Part shown: positions 209 to 62,705 of the stretch, one piece after another | Layout of the letters: every line of letters starts with the position of its first letter | Numbering within the stretch: position 1 is the stretch's first letter | Virus record (IMG/VR): IMGVR_UViG_3300003937_000081 | Coordinates: 1 to 64,000 of that record | DNA from: a virus | Length of the DNA: 64,000 bases | Strand: one strand, 5' to 3' | The notes under the pieces: generated by a model | Databases searched by the model: none | What the model was told of the DNA's origin: nothing | What the model saw: only the letters and a program-made list of their open reading frames with translations | Made by a program: the position numbers and the translations under genes

Positions 209-1810
209 TTACCAAGCGTAATCGAAGGTTTTGATTTTATTAATTCTATCTTTGATATTCTTAGCGTAGTTTTTAGTTTCTCTTTCGTACCAACTCTCAG
301 CTGAACCATATCTTTCTTTAGATTCTTCACCTTGTCTAACATAATCACAATATCTAGAATAGTCATCTAATATATTTGACATGTGATTAGAAGCATCTCT
401 TAATTTAACAACAGATCCTCTTTTGTTTGTTCCGATCATGATTTCACCATATTTGGTTTTCTCACCTTTTTTTAATCCATTTTGAATTTGTGCAGTTAAT
501 TCGTCAATTGCATCCGAGACCATTTTATCTAGTGGTAATTTAGCTGCGTTGTTCGCTAAAATAGTTTCGTATCTTTTCTTGTTTTCAGATTTAAAATCAT
601 CATGTGATTTAAATGCTGTAGCTCCTGATTTTGCAGCGTGTCTATCATTTCTTTTGTTTACAGTTGAATACTTTTGTTGTAATAAATCAACATTAATGAC
701 AATAGCTCTATCCGCAACTTCTGCAATTCTCTTTACGTTATAAAGTCCAGTTGCATCCCATCCTTTGTATTTTTTACCAATACCTATTGAATCTGTTGGG
801 TTATTATCTACTTGTTTAAGATTTCTATCCCTGTTTTTTGAGCGGCCATATCTACTAGATGAAGACCAAACTTGATCATAGAATTTATTACCACCAGAAG
901 TAACAGCTAATAAATAACCTCCACCTGGAATAACTTTATTGCCTTGATATGCATCATAAGGTGCATGTGGATTTTCTTTTTCATTGTCTGAAATATAGAA
1001 AATAATAGAATTTGATTGTTTTGCTTTATATGCGGTTTGTGGATCAGTAGTAATAAGATCTTCATCTTGTACTTTATCTAATGCTACTTTAGTAGAACCA
1101 TAAAATGCGCTTGCTAAGTGTTTGTCTAATTTACCAGATTTTCCTCTAAATAGCTCAGCAAGTCTTTGTGAACCAAATGCTTCAGTAACTAATTCGTTAG
1201 ATAATGAATTTACGAATTCACTAAAGCTTTCATAAATAAATATTGTTTTGTTTTTTGGTGTTTCCATTTTTATATTTGATGTATTTTCTTTTACTAATTT
1301 TGGATTTTTATTCAAAAGCTCTTCCATGTCTATTTCAGTTAATGACATAAAACTATTTTCTCCATACTTTTTAGATAATTTATCTGCTTTTTTAATATCT
1401 ATCACTCTAGTTAAATCATCGTAATCTAAAGTTGCTACTCCAAATTCTCCAAACATTTCTTCTGCCATTGCATTTGCAATTTTAAAAGGAGTTGCCTTTT
1501 CATTAAGTGTAACTTCTGTTGATGGAGTAATTGATTTTAAGATTCTCATACCTGTTTTAGAAAGAGAGATACCATCTTCGCTTACATTAAAATATGGTGT
1601 GTTTCTTCTTAACCATCTTGTAGAATCAGTTGTCATTTCCTTAACAATACTTTTAAATTCTTCTTGGGAAATTTTACCATCTTTAATAGCTTCTAATACT
1701 TTATTTCTAATTTTAGCTGCTTTACCAACAGTTTTTGCAGGATGGTTTTCAGTATATTTTCTCTTAACTGTGATGTTTCTTTCTTCTAATGGTTCTTCGT
1801 TAATATCCAT
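209..1810 (-). CDS. Two-part protein with an internal capsid-targeting-like leader
   Basis: A 533-residue protein I do not recognise. Residues 1-180 form a charged, mainly helical part with a segment RWLRRNTPYFNVSEDG near 65-80. Residues 188-210 read KTIFIYESFSEFVNS and then end in ELVTE before Ala, which looks like the leader and cut site of the neighbouring genes but placed mid-protein. Residues 211-533 form a second part rich in Lys, Asn and Tyr. Met182, just before the leader, could be an internal start that would give a normal leader-first protein; otherwise cutting after Glu210 would release the 323-residue C-terminal part. A late-promoter-like box lies 20 bases upstream of the ATG. T4 packages an ADP-ribosyltransferase (Alt) this way, but I see no clear ART motif here. 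Confidence 0.75.
   Translation of the reverse strand: MDINEEPLEERNITVKRKYTENHPAKTVGKAAKIRNKVLEAIKDGKISQEEFKSIVKEMTTDSTRWLRRNTPYFNVSEDGISLSKTGMRILKSITPSTEVTLNEKATPFKIANAMAEEMFGEFGVATLDYDDLTRVIDIKKADKLSKKYGENSFMSLTEIDMEELLNKNPKLVKENTSNIKMETPKNKTIFIYESFSEFVNSLSNELVTEAFGSQRLAELFRGKSGKLDKHLASAFYGSTKVALDKVQDEDLITTDPQTAYKAKQSNSIIFYISDNEKENPHAPYDAYQGNKVIPGGGYLLAVTSGGNKFYDQVWSSSSRYGRSKNRDRNLKQVDNNPTDSIGIGKKYKGWDATGLYNVKRIAEVADRAIVINVDLLQQKYSTVNKRNDRHAAKSGATAFKSHDDFKSENKKRYETILANNAAKLPLDKMVSDAIDELTAQIQNGLKKGEKTKYGEIMIGTNKRGSVVKLRDASNHMSNILDDYSRYCDYVRQGEESKERYGSAESWYERETKNYAKNIKDRINKIKTFDYAW
1179..1195 (-). repeat. Copy of the cut-site DNA tag inside the 209-1810 gene
   Basis: Plus-strand gcttcagtaactaattc encodes ELVTEA on the minus strand. 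It shares its first 12 bases with the tags in the two polyprotein-like genes at 4975-7272 and 58579-61539. Confidence 0.6.
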
Positions 1811-1830
1811 GTGATAATATTATTGTTTTT

Positions 1831-1842
1831 TATTATATATTC
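1831..1842 (-). promoter_or_regulatory. Late-promoter-like box upstream of 209-1810
   Basis: The coding strand carries a match to GATATATAATA (here with an extra A after the G), ending 20 bases before the ATG at 1810. It overlaps the stop codon of the upstream gene. The box recurs in front of many genes in this window. Confidence 0.5.
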
Positions 1843-3680
1843 TTGATAAATTGATCGAATGTTAATGTTGCTATTTCAGCCTCTTCTAAAACCCCCATAG
1901 AATCTTCCAGTTTAGATTTTAATTCATTATACATATCATGTACTGGCTTAGGTGTTAGCTTCTTAAATAGCTTCTCATCGCCATCTAACATTGCGTTTCT
2001 TACTTGTGTTGCTGATATATTCTTACCAGTTCTTGGTATTTCATAAAGTCCAAAATCAGTTCTAACACCAAGATCTTCTCTATATTCTGGTTTATCTACT
2101 TGAAATCCATAAGTTTTCATTCTATCGCTTCCGGTTCCCCATAATACTGGTTCATATTTTGGCCTCATTGCATTAAACATAGTGTCAATACCACCTGTTG
2201 GAATTACGAAAACTTCTTCAATTGGATATTTAGATTTTAATCTATTGATCATTTCAACTTGAGTTTCCTCATCATAAGGTCTCTTAAATGCATCTTCTTT
2301 TTTCTTGTTCTTGGCTTTTACTAATAAGATTACAACTGGGTGGCCATTTTGCTTATGAATAGTTTCAACTACTTTAGCATGACCCAATGTAAAGGGCTGG
2401 AATCTACCAACAAACATATTTACTAATTTCTTACCATGTTCTGGATAATCTACCTTTAACGCTTCTAAAACAGGAGATTCATTATATTGTAATTTTTGAT
2501 TTAACAAATATGATTTAAAGTTAAGAACATCATTTTCATTTGTTTTTGCCATTACTATTGCATCTATACTATCAACTATTTCATTGATCTGTGACATTAA
2601 ATCTTTATTAATAATATCTGTTTCTTTGTTTCTCTTTTTTCTAAAACTACCTAAAGCTATTTTATACAATTCTGATAAAACTTTATTTTGTATTAATGAT
2701 AGTGTTTTTTCATTTGTGATAAAGGCTGGGTTTAATTTAAAACCTTTGTTTTCTGAAAAATCTGCAGAATTAAAGCTAGCTCCTACATATTTAGAAGCAT
2801 TCTTTTCAATGTATGCATTGAAGATGTGTGAAATTAATTCAATATACCTTTCTGCTGAATCTTCTGATTCTAAAGAAATTTCTTCAAGATTAAACTCTGT
2901 AATATACTCTACTAAATCTAATATAGCGATCTGATACATGTCAGATGGCTCTCTTTTTTGAATATCCTTTCTGTCAAATCTTTCAAGTTTAAAACTTTTT
3001 GGATTTTTACCTTCATAGAAGTTTACTATTAAACCGTCTATGTCATTATCTAAATTAGAATTTAAAGTTGGATTATTAAGACCTATGTTGAATATATTAA
3101 ATATGGCTCTTGTAAAAGATTGATCTTTGAATTTGATTTTAAAATCAGAATCAGAAAGTTCTAGTAATCTAATTAAGTCATCTTTTTGATTTGATTGTAA
3201 AACTCCTTGAAATATAACAGGTGGTTTTTGTACCCCTAATAATTCTGCCCACTTATTTAAGATCTGTGGATCTCTAATAACTTTTTTAATTTGTGTAGGG
3301 TTTTTAGGATTTAATATTTGTATGTGTGTTAGTATTAGATGGTTTTTAGGAAGACTTTCGTATTCGATATCTACTGTTTTGTTGTCTATCATGTAGTCAA
3401 ATCCGAATTTCCAATCATGTGGCATATCTTCTTTTACATCTTTAGGAATAGCCTTAAAGTAATTAATACCATTTTCATAGTATCTTACCATAGTTCTATC
3501 TACTTTATCCATTTTATGTTTAGAACCGCTTTTAAAATATTCATAACCGGTACTAGTACTTTTAACATGAAACGAAGATGCTTGTATTTTTTCCGATACA
3601 ACACATGTTAATTTCAACATTGAATTAAAGTCATTAATGTTAGTTGATTGAAAATATGTTCTTAAATTTTGTAATGCCAT
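1833..3680 (-). CDS. Ligase-like nucleotidyltransferase fused to NMNAT/cytidylyltransferase-type domain
   Basis: A 615-residue two-domain enzyme. Residues 30-37 (EKIQASSF, Lys31) look like the adenylated-lysine motif I of RNA/DNA ligases, and IDGLIVNFYEG with a following FKL near 213-232 looks like motifs IV and V. Residues about 420-600 are a clear HIGH-superfamily nucleotidyltransferase: GRFQPFTLGHA (substrate loop) and ISATQVRNAM (ISxTxxR motif), as in nicotinamide-nucleotide adenylyltransferases. Its ATG overlaps the stop of the upstream ligase-like gene (TAATG), so the two are probably translationally coupled and act together, perhaps in RNA or NAD metabolism. The last residues, ATLTFDQFIKNI, resemble the packaging leader but lie at the C terminus. 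NMN versus cytidylyl specificity cannot be decided here. Confidence 0.8.
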   Translation of the reverse strand: MALQNLRTYFQSTNINDFNSMLKLTCVVSEKIQASSFHVKSTSTGYEYFKSGSKHKMDKVDRTMVRYYENGINYFKAIPKDVKEDMPHDWKFGFDYMIDNKTVDIEYESLPKNHLILTHIQILNPKNPTQIKKVIRDPQILNKWAELLGVQKPPVIFQGVLQSNQKDDLIRLLELSDSDFKIKFKDQSFTRAIFNIFNIGLNNPTLNSNLDNDIDGLIVNFYEGKNPKSFKLERFDRKDIQKREPSDMYQIAILDLVEYITEFNLEEISLESEDSAERYIELISHIFNAYIEKNASKYVGASFNSADFSENKGFKLNPAFITNEKTLSLIQNKVLSELYKIALGSFRKKRNKETDIINKDLMSQINEIVDSIDAIVMAKTNENDVLNFKSYLLNQKLQYNESPVLEALKVDYPEHGKKLVNMFVGRFQPFTLGHAKVVETIHKQNGHPVVILLVKAKNKKKEDAFKRPYDEETQVEMINRLKSKYPIEEVFVIPTGGIDTMFNAMRPKYEPVLWGTGSDRMKTYGFQVDKPEYREDLGVRTDFGLYEIPRTGKNISATQVRNAMLDGDEKLFKKLTPKPVHDMYNELKSKLEDSMGVLEEAEIATLTFDQFIKNI

Positions 3681-4954
3681 TATCTTCCGTATTTTATGAT
3701 ACCCATTAATTGATTAATGGCTGCAAACGTACCTGTTAATTTCATTGTTTTTCCTTTGTACACAAAAACTATTCCTTCAGTTGGTATAATAGATTCTATT
3801 CCTCCAATTCTATCTAATCTGGCAAGTTCAGCTTCTACTCTTGCAATTTGAGATTCACCTCCGGTTTTTTTAATAGCTTCAGCTTCTGTTCTTATTTGAT
3901 TATGTAATCTTTGCATTTCCTTGTCTGGATTTGCTGCTACAAAATTAGAAGCATTTTTAAGAATTATAGATCCTAGTTCTAAGAATAAATCTTCAAACGG
4001 TCTAATGTTTTCTTTATATTTCTTTTTAACATCTTCTTTGTCAAATTTCTTAATAAGAGATGCTTTATCTTTACCTAACGATTTGTCTAAAGATCTCATG
4101 TTTAAAGTCTTCTTATCACCATAAGCCCATCTTAATAATAAACCTTCTTTATAATCTTGTTCTGTATCTGGAAAGTTTCTATCTATAGTTTCTCTCCACC
4201 ACATTTCGTGATATCTTGAAACTGAATCAGTATCTAATAAACCATAACGATCTCTTAGTGCTTCAATCTTTTTGATGAATTTAGATTGATTTTTTTCGAA
4301 ATCAATATCTTTTCCTAATTTTAATATTTGAGGGGGAATTATTGTAAATGTTTTTTGAACATCAGCATCAACTTCTTTTAATGCGGAAACCAGCTCTCCT
4401 GCTATTTTTTGCTCTCCAATAATATTTCCATTTCCATCAGTTTCCTTAATATCATGGAATTGTAAAACATCTCTTTCATAATAAATAACATTAGGATTCT
4501 TAGAGTAAATTAATTCCATATTAATAAAGTTCTTACCTTCATTAAATATAGACTGATCCTTCATCTTTGGAAGAGCTTCATTTAGGTCTTTAGCAGCAAA
4601 CACGTATGTTTCTCTTACTAAGGGAACTTCATGCTGTTCAAACATTTTTATAATACCGGCTAAATCGACTGGGCTAATTAATTGGCCTTTATTTCTAGAA
4701 AATAGAGTAACTCCGTTTCTTACGGTGGCAAATAAATTTTGGCCGTCTGTTTTTTCTGTTGCAACCTCTTCAAAGTTTAATTCTCCTTGAAGACCAGCTT
4801 CAACAATTTTTTTAAAGTCACCGAATGTTAAATCTTTTTCATCAAATGGATGTGACATATGGCCCGCTGCTCCACCTTCTAAAATAAGGGACTCAGTTGT
4901 ACTAGTACGTACACTCTCAGTTATAAATTCATTGAAATTAGTAAAGATCTTCAT
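3680..4954 (-). CDS. Leader-bearing RNA/DNA-ligase-like nucleotidyltransferase
   Basis: A 424-residue protein with leader MKIFTNFNEFITES and two candidate cut sites: I-T-E13 before Ser, and I-L-E26 before Gly-Gly. The mature part has EKTDGQN (Lys68), which fits the KxDG motif I of covalent nucleotidyltransferases, followed by a basic strand ending in FSRNKGQL. The C terminus has PTEGIVFVYKG and KLTG (about 391-407), fitting motifs IV and V. It is larger than minimal ligases and has a helical middle (about 280-370). If the leader works as in T4, this enzyme is packaged in the capsid and enters the cell with the DNA. It is coupled to the NMNAT-fusion gene downstream. Ligase versus capping or other NMP transfer is not resolvable by eye. 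Confidence 0.75.
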   Translation of the reverse strand: MKIFTNFNEFITESVRTSTTESLILEGGAAGHMSHPFDEKDLTFGDFKKIVEAGLQGELNFEEVATEKTDGQNLFATVRNGVTLFSRNKGQLISPVDLAGIIKMFEQHEVPLVRETYVFAAKDLNEALPKMKDQSIFNEGKNFINMELIYSKNPNVIYYERDVLQFHDIKETDGNGNIIGEQKIAGELVSALKEVDADVQKTFTIIPPQILKLGKDIDFEKNQSKFIKKIEALRDRYGLLDTDSVSRYHEMWWRETIDRNFPDTEQDYKEGLLLRWAYGDKKTLNMRSLDKSLGKDKASLIKKFDKEDVKKKYKENIRPFEDLFLELGSIILKNASNFVAANPDKEMQRLHNQIRTEAEAIKKTGGESQIARVEAELARLDRIGGIESIIPTEGIVFVYKGKTMKLTGTFAAINQLMGIIKYGR

Positions 4955-4974: not shown

Positions 4975-7272
4975 TTATTGTCCTAACGAGCTAGTTAGCA
5001 TACCAACTGCAGTACCATAATCTCCATCTGCTTTAGATAAAATACCGTCTATAACTTTTTTAGATTTAGCTTCGTCAAAATCTTCTCCAAATGCTTTTTG
5101 TAAAACAGTTACCGCATATTCTTCAAATTCTTCATCTGAATTAACTTCAGCTTCAGTAACTACTGATTCTGCAACGTTGCTTTCCCACCATGATTCAAGT
5201 TTTTCAAATTCTGAAGTGCCCATATTAGATCTCATAAAATCTTCCACATCATCATAATCATCTTTTTCATCTTGATAATAACCAGGAGTATCGATATAAT
5301 CTTTACCCATTATCTTTTTAATTTGAGCTTCTCCCATTCCATCAATTTCTATTAAGAATTTTTCGAAATCTGTTGTGTTTTTAAAGCCTTTAGCTTCAGT
5401 AACTACTGATTCATTATATAAGTGAACATAGTTACTGTTTTTTTCAGAATAAATTGACTTGATTTCAAATTCTTTTTGTCCTTTGGTATAATATGCTTTA
5501 AAGAATAAATTTTCATCAAACTCTCCAAAGAAATGATCTGATTTGCCAATAAAGAATTCTGCGTTTGGATAAATTTCAAGAACCTCTTCTTGTGTAGTTG
5601 CTTTTAAAACAGCCTCGTCAAACTCTTTAACAAATTTAGCTTCAGTAACCTCTGATTCACTTAATGAATTTCTTAAACCACAATATTCACATTCTACAGT
5701 TCCGTCTTTGTCAATTTCTTTGTATGCATGTCCTTTTTTATTTGAACATTTTGGGTGTGATTCAGTAACTACTGATTCTTCAATATATTCTTCTAGACCA
5801 GCGTCGTCCCAACCATCTTCAGATGCTAAAACTGCTTGCAGATCTTCTCTTGAACCTGTCATTTCAACCTCTGGCCAACCACTTGGTCCACTAGGATCTA
5901 AAACTTTCATTTTAACGTTATGTTTCTTTAAAAGTTTTTTAAGTATCTTTGATTTAGGATCCATTGCATCCATTACTACAGTAGCTTCATTATAACTTAC
6001 AATGTCAGAATATTTAATCTCATGTTCTTCTCCGTCTTGATCTAATCCAAAGATTGTTTTATCTCCCCACATATCATCATTGTTATCGTTGCCATTACCA
6101 TATGCATAAATAACATACTCTTGTCCATTTCCTAATTGAATCATGCCATCATCTGCTTTCATAGCTTTCATTAAAGACTTTTTATCATATGATTTCTCAT
6201 TGATAGCATCTCCTTCGTCATACGCAAATGACTCAAACATGTTAAACGCATTTAATAGAGCTTGACCTGAAGCTTCTTCTTTAATACTCTCTAAATAAAG
6301 AGCAGTACCTTCAACAATTCCGATTCCTGACCAACCAGCTGCATTTGCAAGGTCACTATAATGTTTATCTAAAATTCTTTTTGTAGTAGTAGCACCTATT
6401 GTTAAAAAGTGATTACCTAAACCTGCTACTTTTAATTCAAATGAACCTATTCTACCTTTAATATTCTTAGATATAACTTTCTCTCTGTGGAAATTAGCAT
6501 CTGTCATCGCTTCTTCAAAAAGATACTTAATACAACCTAATGTACCTACTTTGTCCATTGCACCAAAATCTGTTAGTTTCTTAGTAAATAAATTTTTATA
6601 AACTGTTAAAACTTTTTTTGCGTCTCTTTTATATTGAACTGAAATAGCTTCATTTACTGAAGTAGTTAAAGATTCAAACGCTGGGTAAACATCATCATAT
6701 CCTTTACCGTAAATGTCTGCCATTAACCATTCTTTGTTGGCTTCATCCCATAAGTATACGAATTCAGCACCGCCGCCATCAGCAACATCCCTTAGATATT
6801 TAGATATATTAGCAACTTTACCCTTAGACGCTGTAAAGTTCCCGTAGAAATTAATCTTCTTAACATCTTTATCTAAACCCGAACTGTCTCCATTCTTAAG
6901 AATAAAATCTACATTTTTACCATCTTTAAAAGTTGAAGTTATAATAGGTAATATGTTTTCAGGATATGAATCATAATGCATATATACAGAAGTGATATTT
7001 CCTTTTTTATCGATTTTACCAATTTGTCCTCTAGTTCCTTCTTCAATTAAAACAGTTGCTTCGTTAATCTCAGCGCCTCTTAACTTAGTAAAAAATTCGA
7101 TTCTTTGCTCTTCAGTTAATTCTTTGATAGAAGTAACTTTAAATTCACCAAGTAAATTTTTATATGTTTCTGCTTCAGTACTTCTTTTAGTAGAGTTTTC
7201 TTCTTCTACTTGTCTAGATCTATTGATTTGTGATTCAGTAGAAAACTGATCAAAAGATTTTAATTTATACAT
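4975..7272 (-). CDS. Polyprotein-like internal head protein with four VTE cut-site tags
   Basis: A 765-residue protein with leader MYKLKSFDQFSTES (S-T-E13 before Ser). Four near-identical motifs follow: ESVVTES (Glu504), SEVTEA (Glu544), ESVVTEA (Glu626) and ESVVTEA (Glu707). Further plausible sites are I-N-E71 before Ala and V-N-E208 before Ala. Cutting would give segments of about 57, 137, 296, 40, 82, 81 and 58 residues. Segment 505-544 has Cys509, His515, Cys528 and Cys531, a small zinc finger. The last two segments are very acidic. The segment from 209 has an alpha/beta-looking core with Gly-rich turns but no motif I know. Processing by a T4 gp21-type protease is inferred from the site rule and is not shown. 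The gene starts 33 bases after uvsW and has its own late-promoter-like box. Confidence 0.8.
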   Translation of the reverse strand: MYKLKSFDQFSTESQINRSRQVEEENSTKRSTEAETYKNLLGEFKVTSIKELTEEQRIEFFTKLRGAEINEATVLIEEGTRGQIGKIDKKGNITSVYMHYDSYPENILPIITSTFKDGKNVDFILKNGDSSGLDKDVKKINFYGNFTASKGKVANISKYLRDVADGGGAEFVYLWDEANKEWLMADIYGKGYDDVYPAFESLTTSVNEAISVQYKRDAKKVLTVYKNLFTKKLTDFGAMDKVGTLGCIKYLFEEAMTDANFHREKVISKNIKGRIGSFELKVAGLGNHFLTIGATTTKRILDKHYSDLANAAGWSGIGIVEGTALYLESIKEEASGQALLNAFNMFESFAYDEGDAINEKSYDKKSLMKAMKADDGMIQLGNGQEYVIYAYGNGNDNNDDMWGDKTIFGLDQDGEEHEIKYSDIVSYNEATVVMDAMDPKSKILKKLLKKHNVKMKVLDPSGPSGWPEVEMTGSREDLQAVLASEDGWDDAGLEEYIEESVVTESHPKCSNKKGHAYKEIDKDGTVECEYCGLRNSLSESEVTEAKFVKEFDEAVLKATTQEEVLEIYPNAEFFIGKSDHFFGEFDENLFFKAYYTKGQKEFEIKSIYSEKNSNYVHLYNESVVTEAKGFKNTTDFEKFLIEIDGMGEAQIKKIMGKDYIDTPGYYQDEKDDYDDVEDFMRSNMGTSEFEKLESWWESNVAESVVTEAEVNSDEEFEEYAVTVLQKAFGEDFDEAKSKKVIDGILSKADGDYGTAVGMLTSSLGQ
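5150..5778 (-). repeat. Four dispersed cut-site DNA tags (cluster 1)
   Basis: Plus-strand copies of gcttcagtaactactgattc lie at 5150-5169 and 5393-5412 (exact), 5639-5658 (one change) and 5759-5778 (first bases differ). Each encodes the ESVVTEA or ESEVTEA site between segments of the 4975-7272 protein. The segments between the tags show no such DNA identity. Confidence 0.85.
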
Positions 7273-57401: not shown

Positions 57402-57884
57402 TTATAACGTTTCTATTTTGTTGTTTTTCATCCATGCATCTAGTTCTCTTTCTGCTCTGTCGAAAAGTTTATTTCTGTTAATATTTAATCCAAATGAATT
57501 AAAATAATTTTTCATTAGATAGTAAGCAGGTTCTACTGATTCTTCATTAGCAACCATATCACTAACATGCTTCGAAACTTCATATGCATAATAGGCTGAT
57601 TTTTCTGCCATAGGGTTTGTCATAGCATTATAGAATTCTCCACCATAAAATTTACCTACTATATCTCCAAACTTTTGCTTCATTTCTATCCATGAAATTC
57701 CTTCTAATCCAATCCATAATTTAGCTTGAACCGCCTTAGTATCTTTTCTAATAAAACCTTCCTTTGCCATATCCTTAGATATCTCTATGATCTTCTTGGG
57801 AATCGGTAGTTTACCGTTATCTTTTTCCCAGTCCTTGATCTCTTTATCATTTACAAATGATTCAAATAATTTAATATATTTCAT
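57402..57884 (-). CDS. Leader-bearing protein, unknown cargo
   Basis: A 160-residue protein beginning MKYIKLFESFVNDKE. The leader matches its neighbours, but position 13 is Asp where others have Glu, so the cut may be lost or shifted. The body is helical and basic (IPKKIIEISKDMAKEGFIRK; NMNAT or other motifs are absent), with a Gly/Phe-rich turn near 78-82 (GKFYGGEF) and a Tyr-rich helix (SAYYAYEVSKHVSDMVANEE). It stops 36 bases before the next gene's ATG and starts 4 bases after the gene above. Cargo function is unknown. Confidence 0.7.
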   Translation of the reverse strand: MKYIKLFESFVNDKEIKDWEKDNGKLPIPKKIIEISKDMAKEGFIRKDTKAVQAKLWIGLEGISWIEMKQKFGDIVGKFYGGEFYNAMTNPMAEKSAYYAYEVSKHVSDMVANEESVEPAYYLMKNYFNSFGLNINRNKLFDRAERELDAWMKNNKIETL

Positions 57885-57888
57885 ATTA

Positions 57889-58575
57889 TTATGCCTTTGA
57901 TCTTTTTTTAATCGTCTTTAGCTTTGCTTTCAAAGCTAATTGGTTTTTTTGAACAGCTATTTTCATGCCATCAACAGAAGTTTGTTGCATTTGTGATTTT
58001 AACAATGCCGTTTCTATTTTATCAGCTGGTTCTTTTGATTTATCTTTAGACATCTTATTTATTTTCTCAATAAAATCTTTGTTTTTCTTAGATAAACTCT
58101 TTTGTTTTTTAGAAAGATCTTTTATTTTTTCTTTATCTGTTTTTGGTTTACTTTTCTTTTTCTCTAGAATAAATTGATCTAAAGATAAAACACTAACCAT
58201 TTCTTCAACTTTACTCATCTTTTTAGATAGTTCCATTGCCCAATCAACTCCTTCATCTCCACCCCATATTAACCAAGAAACATAACCTTTATCTTTCCAT
58301 GGAGTTTCTTTTAATTCAGGTTTAATAGATGAATTTTTTCTATGTCTATTAAATGAAGCCATACGTTTTACTGTATCTCCAGATATGTTTTCACCTTTAG
58401 CTAATTGATGTGCTCTTGCCCAACCAACTGCAGTTCCAGCGTCCACTTCTTCGCGACCATACTTTTCTTTCCAATCGATTGCCATTTGAGCATTTTTCTT
58501 TGCCGCTTCTGGATAATCGCTGTAAGTATCGTCATCTCTGACTTCAGATTCTAAAAACAATTTAATATACTTCAT
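57889..58575 (-). CDS. Leader-bearing protein with internal second leader and basic tail
   Basis: A 228-residue protein beginning MKYIKLFLESEVRDD. Residues 20-112 are a compact domain (DAGTAVGWARAHQLAKGENI; VKRMASFNRHRK; YVSWLIWGGDEGVDWA) that I know as a recurrent small domain in phage proteins, but whose name I cannot recall. Residues 129-138 read VLSLDQFILE before Lys, like a second leader plus an I-L-E cut. The C-terminal 90 residues are a Lys-rich coiled coil (KKSKPKTDKEKIKDLSKKQK) that could bind DNA after release. A late-promoter-like box overlaps the previous stop and lies one base from the ATG. Confidence 0.72.
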   Translation of the reverse strand: MKYIKLFLESEVRDDDTYSDYPEAAKKNAQMAIDWKEKYGREEVDAGTAVGWARAHQLAKGENISGDTVKRMASFNRHRKNSSIKPELKETPWKDKGYVSWLIWGGDEGVDWAMELSKKMSKVEEMVSVLSLDQFILEKKKSKPKTDKEKIKDLSKKQKSLSKKNKDFIEKINKMSKDKSKEPADKIETALLKSQMQQTSVDGMKIAVQKNQLALKAKLKTIKKRSKA

Positions 58576-58576
58576 G

Positions 58577-58587
58577 TATTATATATT
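58577..58587 (-). promoter_or_regulatory. Late-promoter-like box abutting the ATG of 57889-58575
   Basis: AATATATAATA (one mismatch to the box), one base before the ATG, overlapping the TAA stop of the polyprotein gene. See the leaderless-mRNA finding. Confidence 0.4.
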
Positions 58588-61539
58588 TTGTTTTCTGTGT
58601 GATTGATCAAAGTAATTCTGTTCCTTTAACCCGTCATCATGACCTTCATCTCTAACTTCTTTAGCGACATCTTTATCAGCATCTCCCCAAGTTCCTTTAC
58701 CTTTTGTTAAAAATGCATTTACTCGAGCATATCCCCATTGTTGTTCAGTTGCACCAGGTCTATGACCAGTTTTCCATGCTGCCATTCCTCTTCTCATAAT
58801 AATTCTAATGATACCAATTGGCACACCAGTTTCTTCTGATTTTGTCTTAAGTGCTTTTTCAATTTTAGGATCACTGATTGGACCTCTATCGCCTTCAGCC
58901 TTTTCTAGAATAACACATTCTGCCAATTCTTCCTGAGCAAATGTATTATATTCTTTTGACCATGCCTTCCATTTAGATGGTCTAGCATAATCAGATAAAA
59001 TCATATCAATGGCATCTGGTTGAGAAATCTGAGAATTAATATCGTTCCATACTTTATCTGCTAACCATCTACCAGCTTTTGCGTTTAGATAATATAGCGC
59101 TCCAGCATCTGAGAACTTCCAACCCCTTGTCAATATTCCCCATACATCGTTCCATATTTCTTCAATTTCATAAGTGTCCATATGAACATCTAGAGTTCCC
59201 CAAAAACCATACATTTGATTAATATCATCAGCGTCATATTGTTTTTTCATACCGAATTTAAAATTAGGCACTTTACTTTCTGTAATTAAATCTTCGTTTA
59301 ACTTTACTAATAAAGAATTAAAAAATCTGGGTGATAAAGATTCTACGAATCCTCTTTCTTCAGCATCATTCTCTATCCACTCTCTGTCTTTAGAAGAAAG
59401 TTTTTTATAATCTTTATCAAATCTGTGATGTGCTATTAAATCATAAATATCTTCTAAGTTATAATTACCTTCATTAGCCATTTTCATATCGATCCAAACT
59501 CTAATAATATCTGCATAATCTTTAGCAGTTAATTTTGTTTTATTACCCCAAGTTGTTCTATCATTAAGATCAAACATCTGTTTAGCAAACTTATCAATAT
59601 TACCAGATTTAAAATATATTGTAGCTCTTTGTCTTCCATTATCTAATAATTCCCAAGTTTCTTCTCTATCATCATGTGGATCTAATCTCCAACCAGCTGA
59701 ATGATTTACTCTAATATCACACATACTTGAATTACTATCAACTTGTACAGTCCAATGACCAGAAGATTGATATGTTTTTCCTTTAGCATATTTAATCTTT
59801 TCTTCATTAACTACTGATTCTTCAAGAGTTGAAACAAAGTCAAATAATATTTTACCTTCTTCTCTACCTCTTAAATCAATTAAAAGTTCTTCAGAAGCTG
59901 GACCCATGTTTTCCCAACGTTTATCAGTTTTTTGAATTCTTCCTAATTTAGGTTCTTCTTGAAAAACATAAATCATTTGTAATTTATCTCCTAATCTAAC
60001 GCCGACGGCATCACCTTCTCTTTTTGAAAAGTAAATATCACCATCATTACCTGGTTTAGAAAAATCAGTTGATGTGTGTTTAGCTCTTTCGTTAACTACT
60101 GATTCATATACTGAATATCCATTGGATCTAGCAAAAACACTAGACTCATCGTTCCATTGTTCTTTAGTACTACTTATTGAAACTTGCATATAATTCTTTG
60201 CACCTAAATCTGGCTGTATAAGAAAAACTAAATCATCACTACCAACATAAAGATCCCAATTTCTACCTGATTTTTGAGTTAGTAATAATTGAAAATTAGA
60301 ATCTAATTCATTTTTAAGTTGTCTTGTATTTGGAAAGCTTCCACGACCTGTAGAAAAACCATCTCTGTATTCTAGTTCATCTCCAAAAGAAAGTTGATCT
60401 ACAAATTTTTGTAATCTTTCTTCTTCATCTTTCTCAAAATAAAACTCATTAACTTGAGATTCAGTAAGACCTAATGATTTATTAACTAGATCTACAATCA
60501 CACTAGAGTAATCGTCCTTCAAAGCCCATTTAATTGTTTGACCCTGACTTCTTGCTTTTTTGTTTATCCATTTAAGATGCGTTGCATCAGTAAGAAACTC
60601 GGAAGCTTCTTTTGCAATTCTCTTTGGATCCTTTTTCCATTCTTCAATAGTAGTGCCAAAGTTATTACCGTATGTAGAACCATTAGTTCTTTTAAGGTTA
60701 TTGATTCCACCAATCTTAATGTATATGTCATTATTAATAGGCATTGCTTCAAAGAAAACTACGTCTCTTTCACTTGCATCATTTTCTCCAGATACTTGAT
60801 CAATAGCATAAGTACTATGAACTCTCCATGTAGGTTCGCCCTTTACGTTGTACGGTGCTGAGTGTGTATCTCCACCGAATTCAGAAGCTTTTAACTTATA
60901 TGCTTTAGCTTCAGTAACTACTGATTCTAATATCTTTGAATTTTTATCTATTGAAAAGATAGTTTCCTCTTTTCTTATAATAGAAATTCCCTTAAATGTT
61001 GGTTTGTTAAAATATTTGTTGTTTCCGTTCTCGTATCTTTTTAATGAAGGGTGATCTGCAAACACACCGCCCGGAATGTTGTATATAATAGTTCCCTTTG
61101 GTAACACTATATTTGTATAATTACCAATTTGAACACCTTCAATATCTTTTTTTAATTTATATTTTCTATTATCTAAAGTATATGTACCTCCACTCATAGT
61201 ACCTGAGTTTGGTCTAAATGTTGCTTCATCCACTGACTCATCTTTTTTATCACCATATAATTCATGATATTTCTTTACATGCTTAGATGTTTTAACTTCA
61301 CCTTTTTCTCTAGCTTCTTTATCACCTGGCATTTCTTTATATGCACTAGAATCATCGTCATCCATGTCTGATTGTTTTTTTATCTGATCTTTTTTATCTT
61401 CAATCTCATCGTCATCTAATCCTCTGTGATATGGTTTTGGACCAGGTTTTGCTTCTGACAAATAGTATGCAGTATACTCTTCTCTTGTCATGTTTAGTTT
61501 TGCGGCTTGCATTCCTAGGAAATCGTTAAAATTGCTCAT
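58579..61539 (-). CDS. 986-residue polyprotein-like internal head protein with eight cut sites
   Basis: I start at the ATG at 61537-61539 (MSNFNDFLGMQAAKLNMTRE), 986 residues; a longer frame would run into the previous gene. Candidate cuts follow L-S-E29, V-D-E105, V-T-E210, V-N-E365, V-N-E484, V-N-E579, I-T-E754 and I-L-E879, with next residues A, A, A, F, R, E, S and K. Segments would be 76, 105, 155, 119, 95, 175, 125 and 107 residues. Segment 30-105 has the charged GDKEAREKGEVKTSKHVKKY form. The last segment has GVPIGIIRIIMRRGMAAWKT and RPGATEQQWGYARVNAF, a domain I know from phage and giant-virus proteins. Three sites (VTE210, VNE484, VNE579) share DNA tags with 4975-7272. Cutting is inferred, not shown. 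Confidence 0.8.
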   Translation of the reverse strand: MSNFNDFLGMQAAKLNMTREEYTAYYLSEAKPGPKPYHRGLDDDEIEDKKDQIKKQSDMDDDDSSAYKEMPGDKEAREKGEVKTSKHVKKYHELYGDKKDESVDEATFRPNSGTMSGGTYTLDNRKYKLKKDIEGVQIGNYTNIVLPKGTIIYNIPGGVFADHPSLKRYENGNNKYFNKPTFKGISIIRKEETIFSIDKNSKILESVVTEAKAYKLKASEFGGDTHSAPYNVKGEPTWRVHSTYAIDQVSGENDASERDVVFFEAMPINNDIYIKIGGINNLKRTNGSTYGNNFGTTIEEWKKDPKRIAKEASEFLTDATHLKWINKKARSQGQTIKWALKDDYSSVIVDLVNKSLGLTESQVNEFYFEKDEEERLQKFVDQLSFGDELEYRDGFSTGRGSFPNTRQLKNELDSNFQLLLTQKSGRNWDLYVGSDDLVFLIQPDLGAKNYMQVSISSTKEQWNDESSVFARSNGYSVYESVVNERAKHTSTDFSKPGNDGDIYFSKREGDAVGVRLGDKLQMIYVFQEEPKLGRIQKTDKRWENMGPASEELLIDLRGREEGKILFDFVSTLEESVVNEEKIKYAKGKTYQSSGHWTVQVDSNSSMCDIRVNHSAGWRLDPHDDREETWELLDNGRQRATIYFKSGNIDKFAKQMFDLNDRTTWGNKTKLTAKDYADIIRVWIDMKMANEGNYNLEDIYDLIAHHRFDKDYKKLSSKDREWIENDAEERGFVESLSPRFFNSLLVKLNEDLITESKVPNFKFGMKKQYDADDINQMYGFWGTLDVHMDTYEIEEIWNDVWGILTRGWKFSDAGALYYLNAKAGRWLADKVWNDINSQISQPDAIDMILSDYARPSKWKAWSKEYNTFAQEELAECVILEKAEGDRGPISDPKIEKALKTKSEETGVPIGIIRIIMRRGMAAWKTGHRPGATEQQWGYARVNAFLTKGKGTWGDADKDVAKEVRDEGHDDGLKEQNYFDQSHRKQNI
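59805..60927 (-). repeat. Three dispersed cut-site DNA tags (cluster 2)
   Basis: Plus-strand tags at 59805-59820 and 60090-60105 (ending ttaactactgattc) and an exact gcttcagtaactactgattc at 60908-60927. They encode ESVVNE, ESVVNE and ESVVTEA. The third is identical to two tags in the gene at 4975-7272, more than 55 kb away. Confidence 0.85.
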
Positions 61540-61549
61540 GTTGTTTTTA

Positions 61550-62005
61550 TTATTTTGGTAATCTAACCATAGTATCTTTAGTTTGGCTTTTATCTGTATT
61601 CTTGACAAAATCAAAGTTTTTATAAAACTTATTTAATCTAGAAATAGAAGTTGCACCAAAATCTTTAGAAGGTGTTAGATATATTTTTAAATTTTGTGTG
61701 TCGGCATAGTCAGTAATTCTTGACATAACCTTAGAACCGATTCCTTTATTTCGGTCCTCTTTTTGTATTTTTATTTTACTAAGTTGTAAGTATTTACCGT
61801 TATCATATAAATCTAATTCTATATTGAATTGATCTTCTAATTCCTGTAAGATAAATTGTTCTCCTAAAATAGGTGTATTATCATGATTACATTTATGACA
61901 AATAAACACATCGTGTCCACCGTCTTCTATTTCCCAAGACCAACCACAGTTATCACAAGATACCTTGTTTGCTGTAAACTCTTCGAATAGTTTTATGTAT
62001 TTCAT
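61550..62005 (-). CDS. Leader-bearing zinc-ribbon GNAT acetyltransferase
   Basis: A 151-residue protein beginning MKYIKLFEEFTANK. Next is a zinc ribbon with Cys17, Cys20, Cys36 and Cys39 (CDNCGWSWEIEDGGHDVFIC). The rest is a small GNAT fold, with the acetyl-CoA loop QKEDRNKGIGSKVM (81-94) and a C-terminal NKFYKNFDFVKN strand-helix end. Known GNAT enzymes transfer acetyl groups to proteins or small molecules; the substrate here is unknown. The leader suggests it is packaged, which would deliver an acetyltransferase at the start of infection, comparable in idea to T4 Alt. No I-x-E is seen exactly at position 13, so processing is less certain. It starts one base after the metalloprotease gene ends. 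Confidence 0.82.
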   Translation of the reverse strand: MKYIKLFEEFTANKVSCDNCGWSWEIEDGGHDVFICHKCNHDNTPILGEQFILQELEDQFNIELDLYDNGKYLQLSKIKIQKEDRNKGIGSKVMSRITDYADTQNLKIYLTPSKDFGATSISRLNKFYKNFDFVKNTDKSQTKDTMVRLPK

Positions 62006-62006
62006 A

Positions 62007-62705
62007 TTAAAATTTAGGTATACCTCCTATTTTTGCTGCTCTTCGTCTCCAAAGATCTAATACTTGTTCTCTTTCTTCGTCGTTAATAACACCCTGTTCC
62101 TGTTGCGTATCTAAATATCTACGAACAGTATCACTCATGTTTTCTTTTCTCTTCTTAGCCTCATATCTTAATCCTTGTAAATTAGCATCTACCTCTTTAG
62201 GTAACATTAGATATTGAGATTTTGGTAAAAGTCCCATTTTTATATAGGCTCTTAGTTCACTATCGTCTTCATTAGGTTTGCCGTTTCTGTAATTTCCAGT
62301 GTCAATCCCATCTTGTGTAATATGTTCCATTTCATGGCGAACAACATCCGCTAAATGAAAATATACTGTTGACCATTCTCCTGGAATCCACTCAGGATTT
62401 AAAGCAAAGTCTATAATAATATAAGGTGTTTGAAAGTCACCGTGATCATCATCGTCTCTGCCATCGGCACCTGTTGAATCTAATACTTGAAATCCTTCAT
62501 ATTTTTTATCAATATCAATAGTAGCTTCAATATCAAACTCTAAACCTCTCTCTTCAATTTGGTCTCCATAATTTATTGTAGCGTTCCCGCCTTTATATGA
62601 TTTAACCCATTTATTGAATATAGCTTTAGTTAATTTAGAAGCTAATCCGTCATATGCAGATCTTCCTTCACCAATAAAACTTTCATATGTTCTAATATGT
62701 TTCAT
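62007..62705 (-). CDS. Leader-bearing zinc metallopeptidase
   Basis: A 232-residue protein beginning MKHIRTYESFIGEG, with I-G-E13 before Gly as the candidate cut. Residues 123-129 are RHEMEHI, a HExxH zincin site (His124, Glu125, His128). LPKEVDANLQGLRYEA after it has the PxExDA form that often supplies a third ligand in phage minimal zincins. Before it is an Asp-rich patch (DGRDDDDHGDF). The C terminus is helical (MSDTVRRYLDTQQEQGVIND). A target is unknown: host protein, cell wall-linked peptide or cargo are all possible. The message must start in the 45 bases after a terminator, where a late-promoter-like box lies one base before the ATG. Confidence 0.8.
   Translation of the reverse strand: MKHIRTYESFIGEGRSAYDGLASKLTKAIFNKWVKSYKGGNATINYGDQIEERGLEFDIEATIDIDKKYEGFQVLDSTGADGRDDDDHGDFQTPYIIIDFALNPEWIPGEWSTVYFHLADVVRHEMEHITQDGIDTGNYRNGKPNEDDSELRAYIKMGLLPKSQYLMLPKEVDANLQGLRYEAKKRKENMSDTVRRYLDTQQEQGVINDEEREQVLDLWRRRAAKIGGIPKF

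Follow-up and report, generated by a model that had tools for sequence, protein, structure and literature searches.

The stretch analysed here (the window) comprises bases 1-64000 of an 88,073-base IMG/VR virus record, from a marine T4-like phage. On its minus strand, at 58579-61539, lies a gene for a mosaic, putative polyprotein of 986 residues, whose modules we name N-F-C-R-G-D-S-x-H (our own naming) from the open reading frame, the module map and relatives. The original prediction had described this reading frame with eight (I/L/V)-x-E sites, and both are present, with the site glutamates (hereafter hinges) at E29, E105, E210, E365, E484, E579, E754 and E879. A 29-residue leader is thus followed by segments of 76, 105, 155, 119, 95, 175, 125 and 107 residues. 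The predicted division into eight segments of 76-175 residues agrees with these sites and lengths, but the count is only approximate; residues 580-754 make up more than one module. The leader, MSNFNDFLGMQAAKLNMTREEYTAYYLSE|A (61453-61539), ends in L-S-E|A, in keeping with the (I/L)-x-E end of capsid-targeting leaders such as that of T4 IPIII, but it is 29 residues long and divergent in form.

All segments are encoded on the minus strand. Module N (residues 30-105; 61225-61452) ends in SVDE and has relatives in other proteins by hmmsearch. Module F (106-210; 60910-61224), ending in ESVVTE, is supported by a profile search of relatives and by the structure model, in which residues about 121-208 form a confidently modelled beta domain. 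Relatives also delimit module C (211-365; 60445-60909), which starts E|AKAYKLKA and ends in ESQVNE, and module R (366-484; 60088-60444), which ends in ESVVNE and is retained next to a replaced neighbour in locus L004. Module G (485-579; 59803-60087) likewise ends in ESVVNE; it is cleanly deleted in L004 and follows MKYIKPLNE in L075. Segment 580-754 is composite: relatives and the module map place a border at residue 690, separating module D (580-690; 59470-59802) from module S plus tail (691-754; 59278-59469, ending in EDLITE). The hinge that follows module D in relatives (MANESMVTE, MANESIVNE) is degenerate in the window protein, where it is reduced to MANEG. Residues 755-879 (58903-59277), delimited by relatives, end in CVILE.

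The last segment, module H (880-986; 58582-58902), had been said to hold a domain known as a free-standing unit, and this proved correct: it carries DUF5824 (PF19141, E = 3.2e-14, residues 898-957), which occurs free-standing or fused elsewhere. No other Pfam domain above cut-off was found in the window protein, including any known polyvalent enzymatic or peptidase domain, and the related proteins of L010 and L011 have no Pfam match above cut-off. In Pelagibacter phage HTVC008M and Methylophilales phage Melnitz, the relative of DUF5824 belongs to a fusion with a nucleotidyltransferase-like part.

The polyprotein gene stands within a row of leader-bearing genes. Two minus-strand genes, defined by relatives and the module map, carry single modules: module I behind leader MKYIKLFLESEVRD (57889-58575) and module M behind leader MKYIKLFESFVNDK (57402-57884), both without a clean [ILV]-x-E directly ahead of the module. 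Module I also occurs within polyproteins of L011, L013, L052, L060, L063 and others, and module M is the terminal module in those of L011, L013, L052, L063, L064, L074 and others. In L052 and L060, where the neighbouring genes are similar, a single ORF joins these two modules with N and H; in the window they are separate genes. Relatives of module I are also found inside genes annotated as prohead protease, portal or major capsid protein in unrelated phages (haloarchaeal, Roseobacter and Synechococcus). One such gene, annotated as prohead protease and encoding 889 residues, lies at 2136-4802 of Halogranum tailed virus 1 (L123), a haloarchaeal virus, and possibly encodes a further head polyprotein.

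On the other side of the polyprotein gene, also on the minus strand, a gene at 61550-62005 encodes the leader MKYIKLFEEF, a Cys-rich N-terminal part (SCDNCGWSWEIEDGG...CHKCNHDN) and a GNAT-like part whose Pfam match is below cut-off; its product is possibly an internal enzyme cargo. Next to it, at 62007-62705 on the minus strand, lies a gene with the leader MKHIRTYESFIGE|G. A second mosaic polyprotein, of 765 residues, is encoded at 4975-7272 on the minus strand, with the leader MYKLKSFDQF and hinges ending at residues 359, 504, 544, 626 and 707; three hinges are exactly ESVVTE, and 43 related IMG/VR loci differ in their tail modules. Within 209-4954 of the window, a cytidyltransferase-like gene (1833-3680, PHROG 3041) adjoins a leader gene (3680-4954, leader MKIFTNFNEFITE). 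The gene at 1-188, truncated by the record end, has the leader MKRIPTFESFVNE|Y and is likely another head-cargo gene.

The shared extended context of several hinges had been claimed to be beyond chance, and this holds; the bare motif is not enriched. The bare [ILV]-x-E motif occurs 17 times in the 986-residue protein against 13.5 in shuffled sequences, with 349 of 2000 shuffles reaching 17, so that the choice of eight sites was post hoc; we dropped this count as evidence. The hexamer E-S/D/N-[VILQ]-[VIL]-[TNS]-E, which covers the ESVVTE and ESVVNE contexts, is present five times where 0.01 is expected, a number reached in none of 2000 shuffles. Among 1019 distinct ORFs of the phage group, 155 instances of ES[VIL][VIL][TN]E were counted, compared with 0.35 in shuffles, and low-complexity sequence apart no hexamer is commoner than ESVVTE (42 distinct contexts).

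Structure prediction was of limited use. The model of the 986-residue chain has a mean pLDDT of 39 and is fairly confident only for residues about 121-208 and the DUF5824 region; its hinges lie in coil, as does much else of the chain, so that it decides little. In the model of the 765-residue protein (mean pLDDT 61.7), all six hinge glutamates have a pLDDT below 50, as do 27% of residues overall, and lie in low-confidence linkers between better folded stretches. A Foldseek search of the models of both polyproteins against the PDB gave no match at E <= 0.001.

Relatives were collected by an IMG/VR scan and share only single segments with the window protein at high identity. These segments are 85-98% identical beside unrelated neighbours, and the hinge glutamate marks their borders to the residue. 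Seven other protein contexts, with the near-identical copy L002 left out of the count, contain segment 211-365 at 88-94% identity, each time beginning with E|AKAYKLKA. Compared with the window protein, L004 has an unrelated segment in place of 211-365 and lacks 485-579 without a scar, with flanks alike, and L003 has two other segments in place of 366-579 with flanks nearly unchanged. The protein of L010 packs about 14 hinge-bordered segments into 1315 residues. Across 56 non-redundant proteins, 22.8% of the breakpoints of homology lie within five residues of a strict hinge, against 4.8% of random positions and at most 7.6% in 200 random sets; for any [ILV]xE the shares are 59.6% and 21.9%. Profile searches defined twenty module families, whose order varies between genomes. 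Modules are under purifying selection (pN/pS 0.09-0.49).

Because modules stand behind differing upstream partners, nature has in effect carried out a mutagenesis experiment at the junction. Distinct upstream octamers define 72 junctions, four chance matches of a short anchor having been set aside, and 70 of these carry (I/L/V)-x-E at P3-P1, in about 38 different tetramers that range from the leader FIAE to PLHE, KVDE, HIHE and VVTE. Module B alone is preceded by FIAE, GVTE, VLHE, SVNE, KVDE, PIGE or PLHE. The P3 residue is V in 46 cases, I in 13 and L in 12. It is the (I/L/V)-x-E peptide motif itself that is retained at junctions of different DNA ancestry.

Among 50,697 phage records, tblastn gave no match in named phages to the L010 protein or the 765-residue protein, and only DUF5824 and module I were found in named phages. 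A scan of bacterial genomes for host or prophage copies returned none, and naming of modules by PHROGs, Pfam and PADLOC left almost none named.

The hinge is also alike at the DNA level. The 18-nt hinge GAATCAGTAGTTACTGAA (for example, the window codons of residues 205-210) holds a 6-bp inverted repeat around GT, and the hinge DNA TCAGTAGTTACTGA is a near-palindrome, TCAGTA-GT-TACTGA. Its codons are frozen in a position-specific manner: the first Val is GTA in 71 of 81 cases (background 38%), the second GTT in 69 of 72 (57%) and the Ser TCA in 77 of 97 (35%). Conservation stops sharply at the 18 nt of the hinge, and the flanks are not conserved. Of 78 hinge DNA sites, 76 are in frame as an ESVVTE-like peptide, and the remaining two are palindromic copies read on the opposite strand; for want of any out-of-frame copy, the idea of a free DNA recombination site was rejected. 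Codon identity between unrelated hinges (0.77) resembles that between orthologous modules (0.66-0.79), so recent exchange of hinge DNA by recombination, or its shared recent descent, is enough to account for it, and a dedicated DNA site is not needed, though not excluded. At leader sites the codons are free and the peptide motif is retained.

Modules also occur as separate genes with their own leaders. At the starts of separate genes of the phage group we found 44 distinct leaders of the form MKHIKLFEQFINE|A, a form that matches the start of T4 IPIII, MKTYQEFIAE|A. In the T4 IPIII leader, residues 4 and 7 bear on targeting, and residues 8 and 10 on cutting (PMC9026906). In L043, a gene at 3950-4471 reading ...KLELNE|GIFDSIADP is 97% identical over 149 residues to the L010 segment that follows SESVVTE|GIFDSIADP.

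No capsid or protease gene was found in the 88-kb source record, a fragment that lacks head genes, and relatives were therefore used to examine the connection with the head. A gp21-family protease gene (E 3e-15 to 5e-12) is present in three related genomes (G003, G004 and G006), as is a gp23-family capsid gene (E about 1e-44). The residues H85 and S140 of T4 gp21, which we take to be catalytic, are conserved in the relatives' proteases. Directly after the portal gene, the place occupied by genes 67 and 68 in T4, a mosaic gene built of these modules is found in L009, L010, L050 and L053. The gp21 protease gene comes next in L009 and L050, and the contigs of L010 and L053 end before its position. 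The mosaics of L009 and L050 finish with an acidic module homologous to a stand-alone gene at the same place in G006 and G003. The L053 post-portal gene has window segment 106-210 as its first module, behind the leader MKKIKLFEEFIAE, and segment 211-365 occurs in the post-portal genes of L009 and L010. The window copy of the polyprotein gene lies away from any head cluster. The claim that the hinges mark borders of independent units is well supported by the exact replacement and deletion of cassettes at hinges, the free-standing versions with leaders and the mosaic genes after the portal gene.

Further observations were made around these head genes. In L026 (4337-6184) and L033 (7796-9844) the gp21-family protease forms the N-terminal part of an ORF of 615-682 residues with a long, acidic and repetitive C-terminal part, which may represent a fusion of protease and scaffold (gp21-gp22 like). 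In G006 (L026, 9066-10814), the gene two places after the capsid gene encodes a long GTSGKDK repeat preceded by three ESVV(T/N)E hinges. A cut site in the capsid protein could not be assigned by alignment with T4 gp23, as the local KLYE|DA did not align unambiguously with LTE|A, and a scan for late promoters (TATAAATA) was uninformative.

The hinges, the cassette exchange and the free-standing leader versions are established, as are, in relatives, the head-cluster location and the presence of protease and capsid genes. With no protease or capsid gene in the 88-kb record, the protease and the polyprotein have not been shown together within that genome. We consider it probable that the gene product is a capsid-targeted polyprotein of internal head (ejection) proteins, cut at its hinges by a gp21-family protease and exchanging modules there; cutting, packaging in the mature virion, ejection, equal stoichiometry and functions are inferences from sequence data. 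In the mechanism we propose, the N-terminal leader would bring the chain into the prohead core, where a gp21-family (peptidase S77) prohead protease would cut after (I/L/V)-x-E at each hinge and release, in series, several small proteins unrelated to each other. As with the T4 internal proteins, their expected fate is packaging together with the DNA and, probably, ejection into the host. Besides being the cut site, the hinge would act as a recombination joint through which loci and phages exchange, lose or acquire cassettes. The fuller version of this idea, an effector polyprotein in which one chain cut by the head protease yields many ejected proteins, and in which the 18-nt hinge is both protease site and joint for integron-like cassette swapping between loci and genomes, we hold at even chances. 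Anti-defence or host-takeover roles of the modules are inferred.

The position of the relatives' mosaic genes at the gp67/68 place, some with an acidic, core-like end module, would also fit an expendable prohead core, that is, a scaffold or core filler whose cut pieces mostly exit the head and are not delivered cargo. In T4, cutting of gp22, gp67 and a third core protein indeed yields many fragments, most of which are lost from the head (PMC9026906). Filler would have no need of varied conserved folds, however, and the modules have defined borders and purifying selection, separate leader genes and a DUF5824 domain, while the window copy lies outside a head cluster among leader-bearing genes. 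We regard this core reading as unlikely.

Two other explanations leave the hinge uncut or make it mainly a matter of DNA. Phage proteins of the polyvalent type, with 2-15 shuffled domains, have been described, some of them transferred uncut (PMC5512222), and the window protein could be of that kind, its whole chain acting as one protein in the virion or the infected cell and its hinges serving as flexible linkers and recombination joints, of which likeness at the DNA level would be expected. A plain linker would not, however, need a motif that also ends short leaders before single modules, nor one retained at junctions of different DNA ancestry, and we think an uncut chain quite improbable. 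Alternatively, a recombinase or nuclease acting at TCAGTA-GT-TACTGA could shuffle the cassettes, with the peptide motif as a by-product. Position-specific codon freezing and its sharp confinement to 18 nt speak for such an element; yet it has no copy out of frame, shared recent descent suffices for the codon identity, and leader sites keep the peptide despite free codons. Very little credence is left for it. The preferred reading remains that of a capsid-targeted polyprotein cut by the head protease.

If cutting is confirmed, the arrangement would be a ready means of delivering numerous different proteins at equal copy number along with the phage genome, and it would explain the turnover of injected proteins in marine T4-like phages. 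It would also supply small modules with natural borders, for the most part unannotated, as candidates for anti-defence proteins, T4 IP1-3 being anti-restriction proteins (PMC12373910). To list the cassettes, it is enough to split the chains at the hinge.

Polyproteins are a standard trick of many RNA viruses. Among phages and conjugative elements, the polyvalent proteins are likewise shuffled multidomain proteins delivered with DNA, and their authors likened them to viral polyproteins (PMC5512222); they differ in having an embedded peptidase and enzymatic domains, whereas no peptidase domain was found here and the expected cutter is the head protease. In phiKZ and SPN3US, a gp21-like protease also acts on numerous head and ejection proteins, cutting each propeptide at several sites (PMC10052503, PMC9026906), but nearly all of these cuts remove N-terminal propeptides and no serial release of multiple cargoes is described there. 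The T4 core proteins gp22, gp67 and gp68 resemble the present case in the post-portal gene place (in relatives), the acidic terminal module and, as inferred here and known for gp21 in T4, cutting into several pieces. Unlike it, their fragments are mostly expelled and they are not shuffled cassettes of separately existing genes. T4 IPI, IPII, IPIII and Alt, which have a capsid-targeting sequence and a gp21 cut, are alike in a short N-terminal leader ending in (I/L/V)-x-E|A, small unrelated cargoes that share only the leader, and a gp21-family protease (here in relatives). Mature T4 IPI* has 76 residues, the size of the modules here (PMC3012670). The T4 gp21 rule has been described as L/I-x-E (PMC9026906), whereas the hinge P3 here is mostly V. 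Each T4 internal protein has its own gene and one leader, whereas here one leader precedes up to about 14 modules per chain, with internal hinges. A search of the literature, which did not cover most subscription journals, found no described tailed-phage head-cargo polyprotein of this kind. Within that literature, what is new relative to the T4 internal-protein system is the serial arrangement of cargoes in one chain and the exchange of cassettes at the cut sites.
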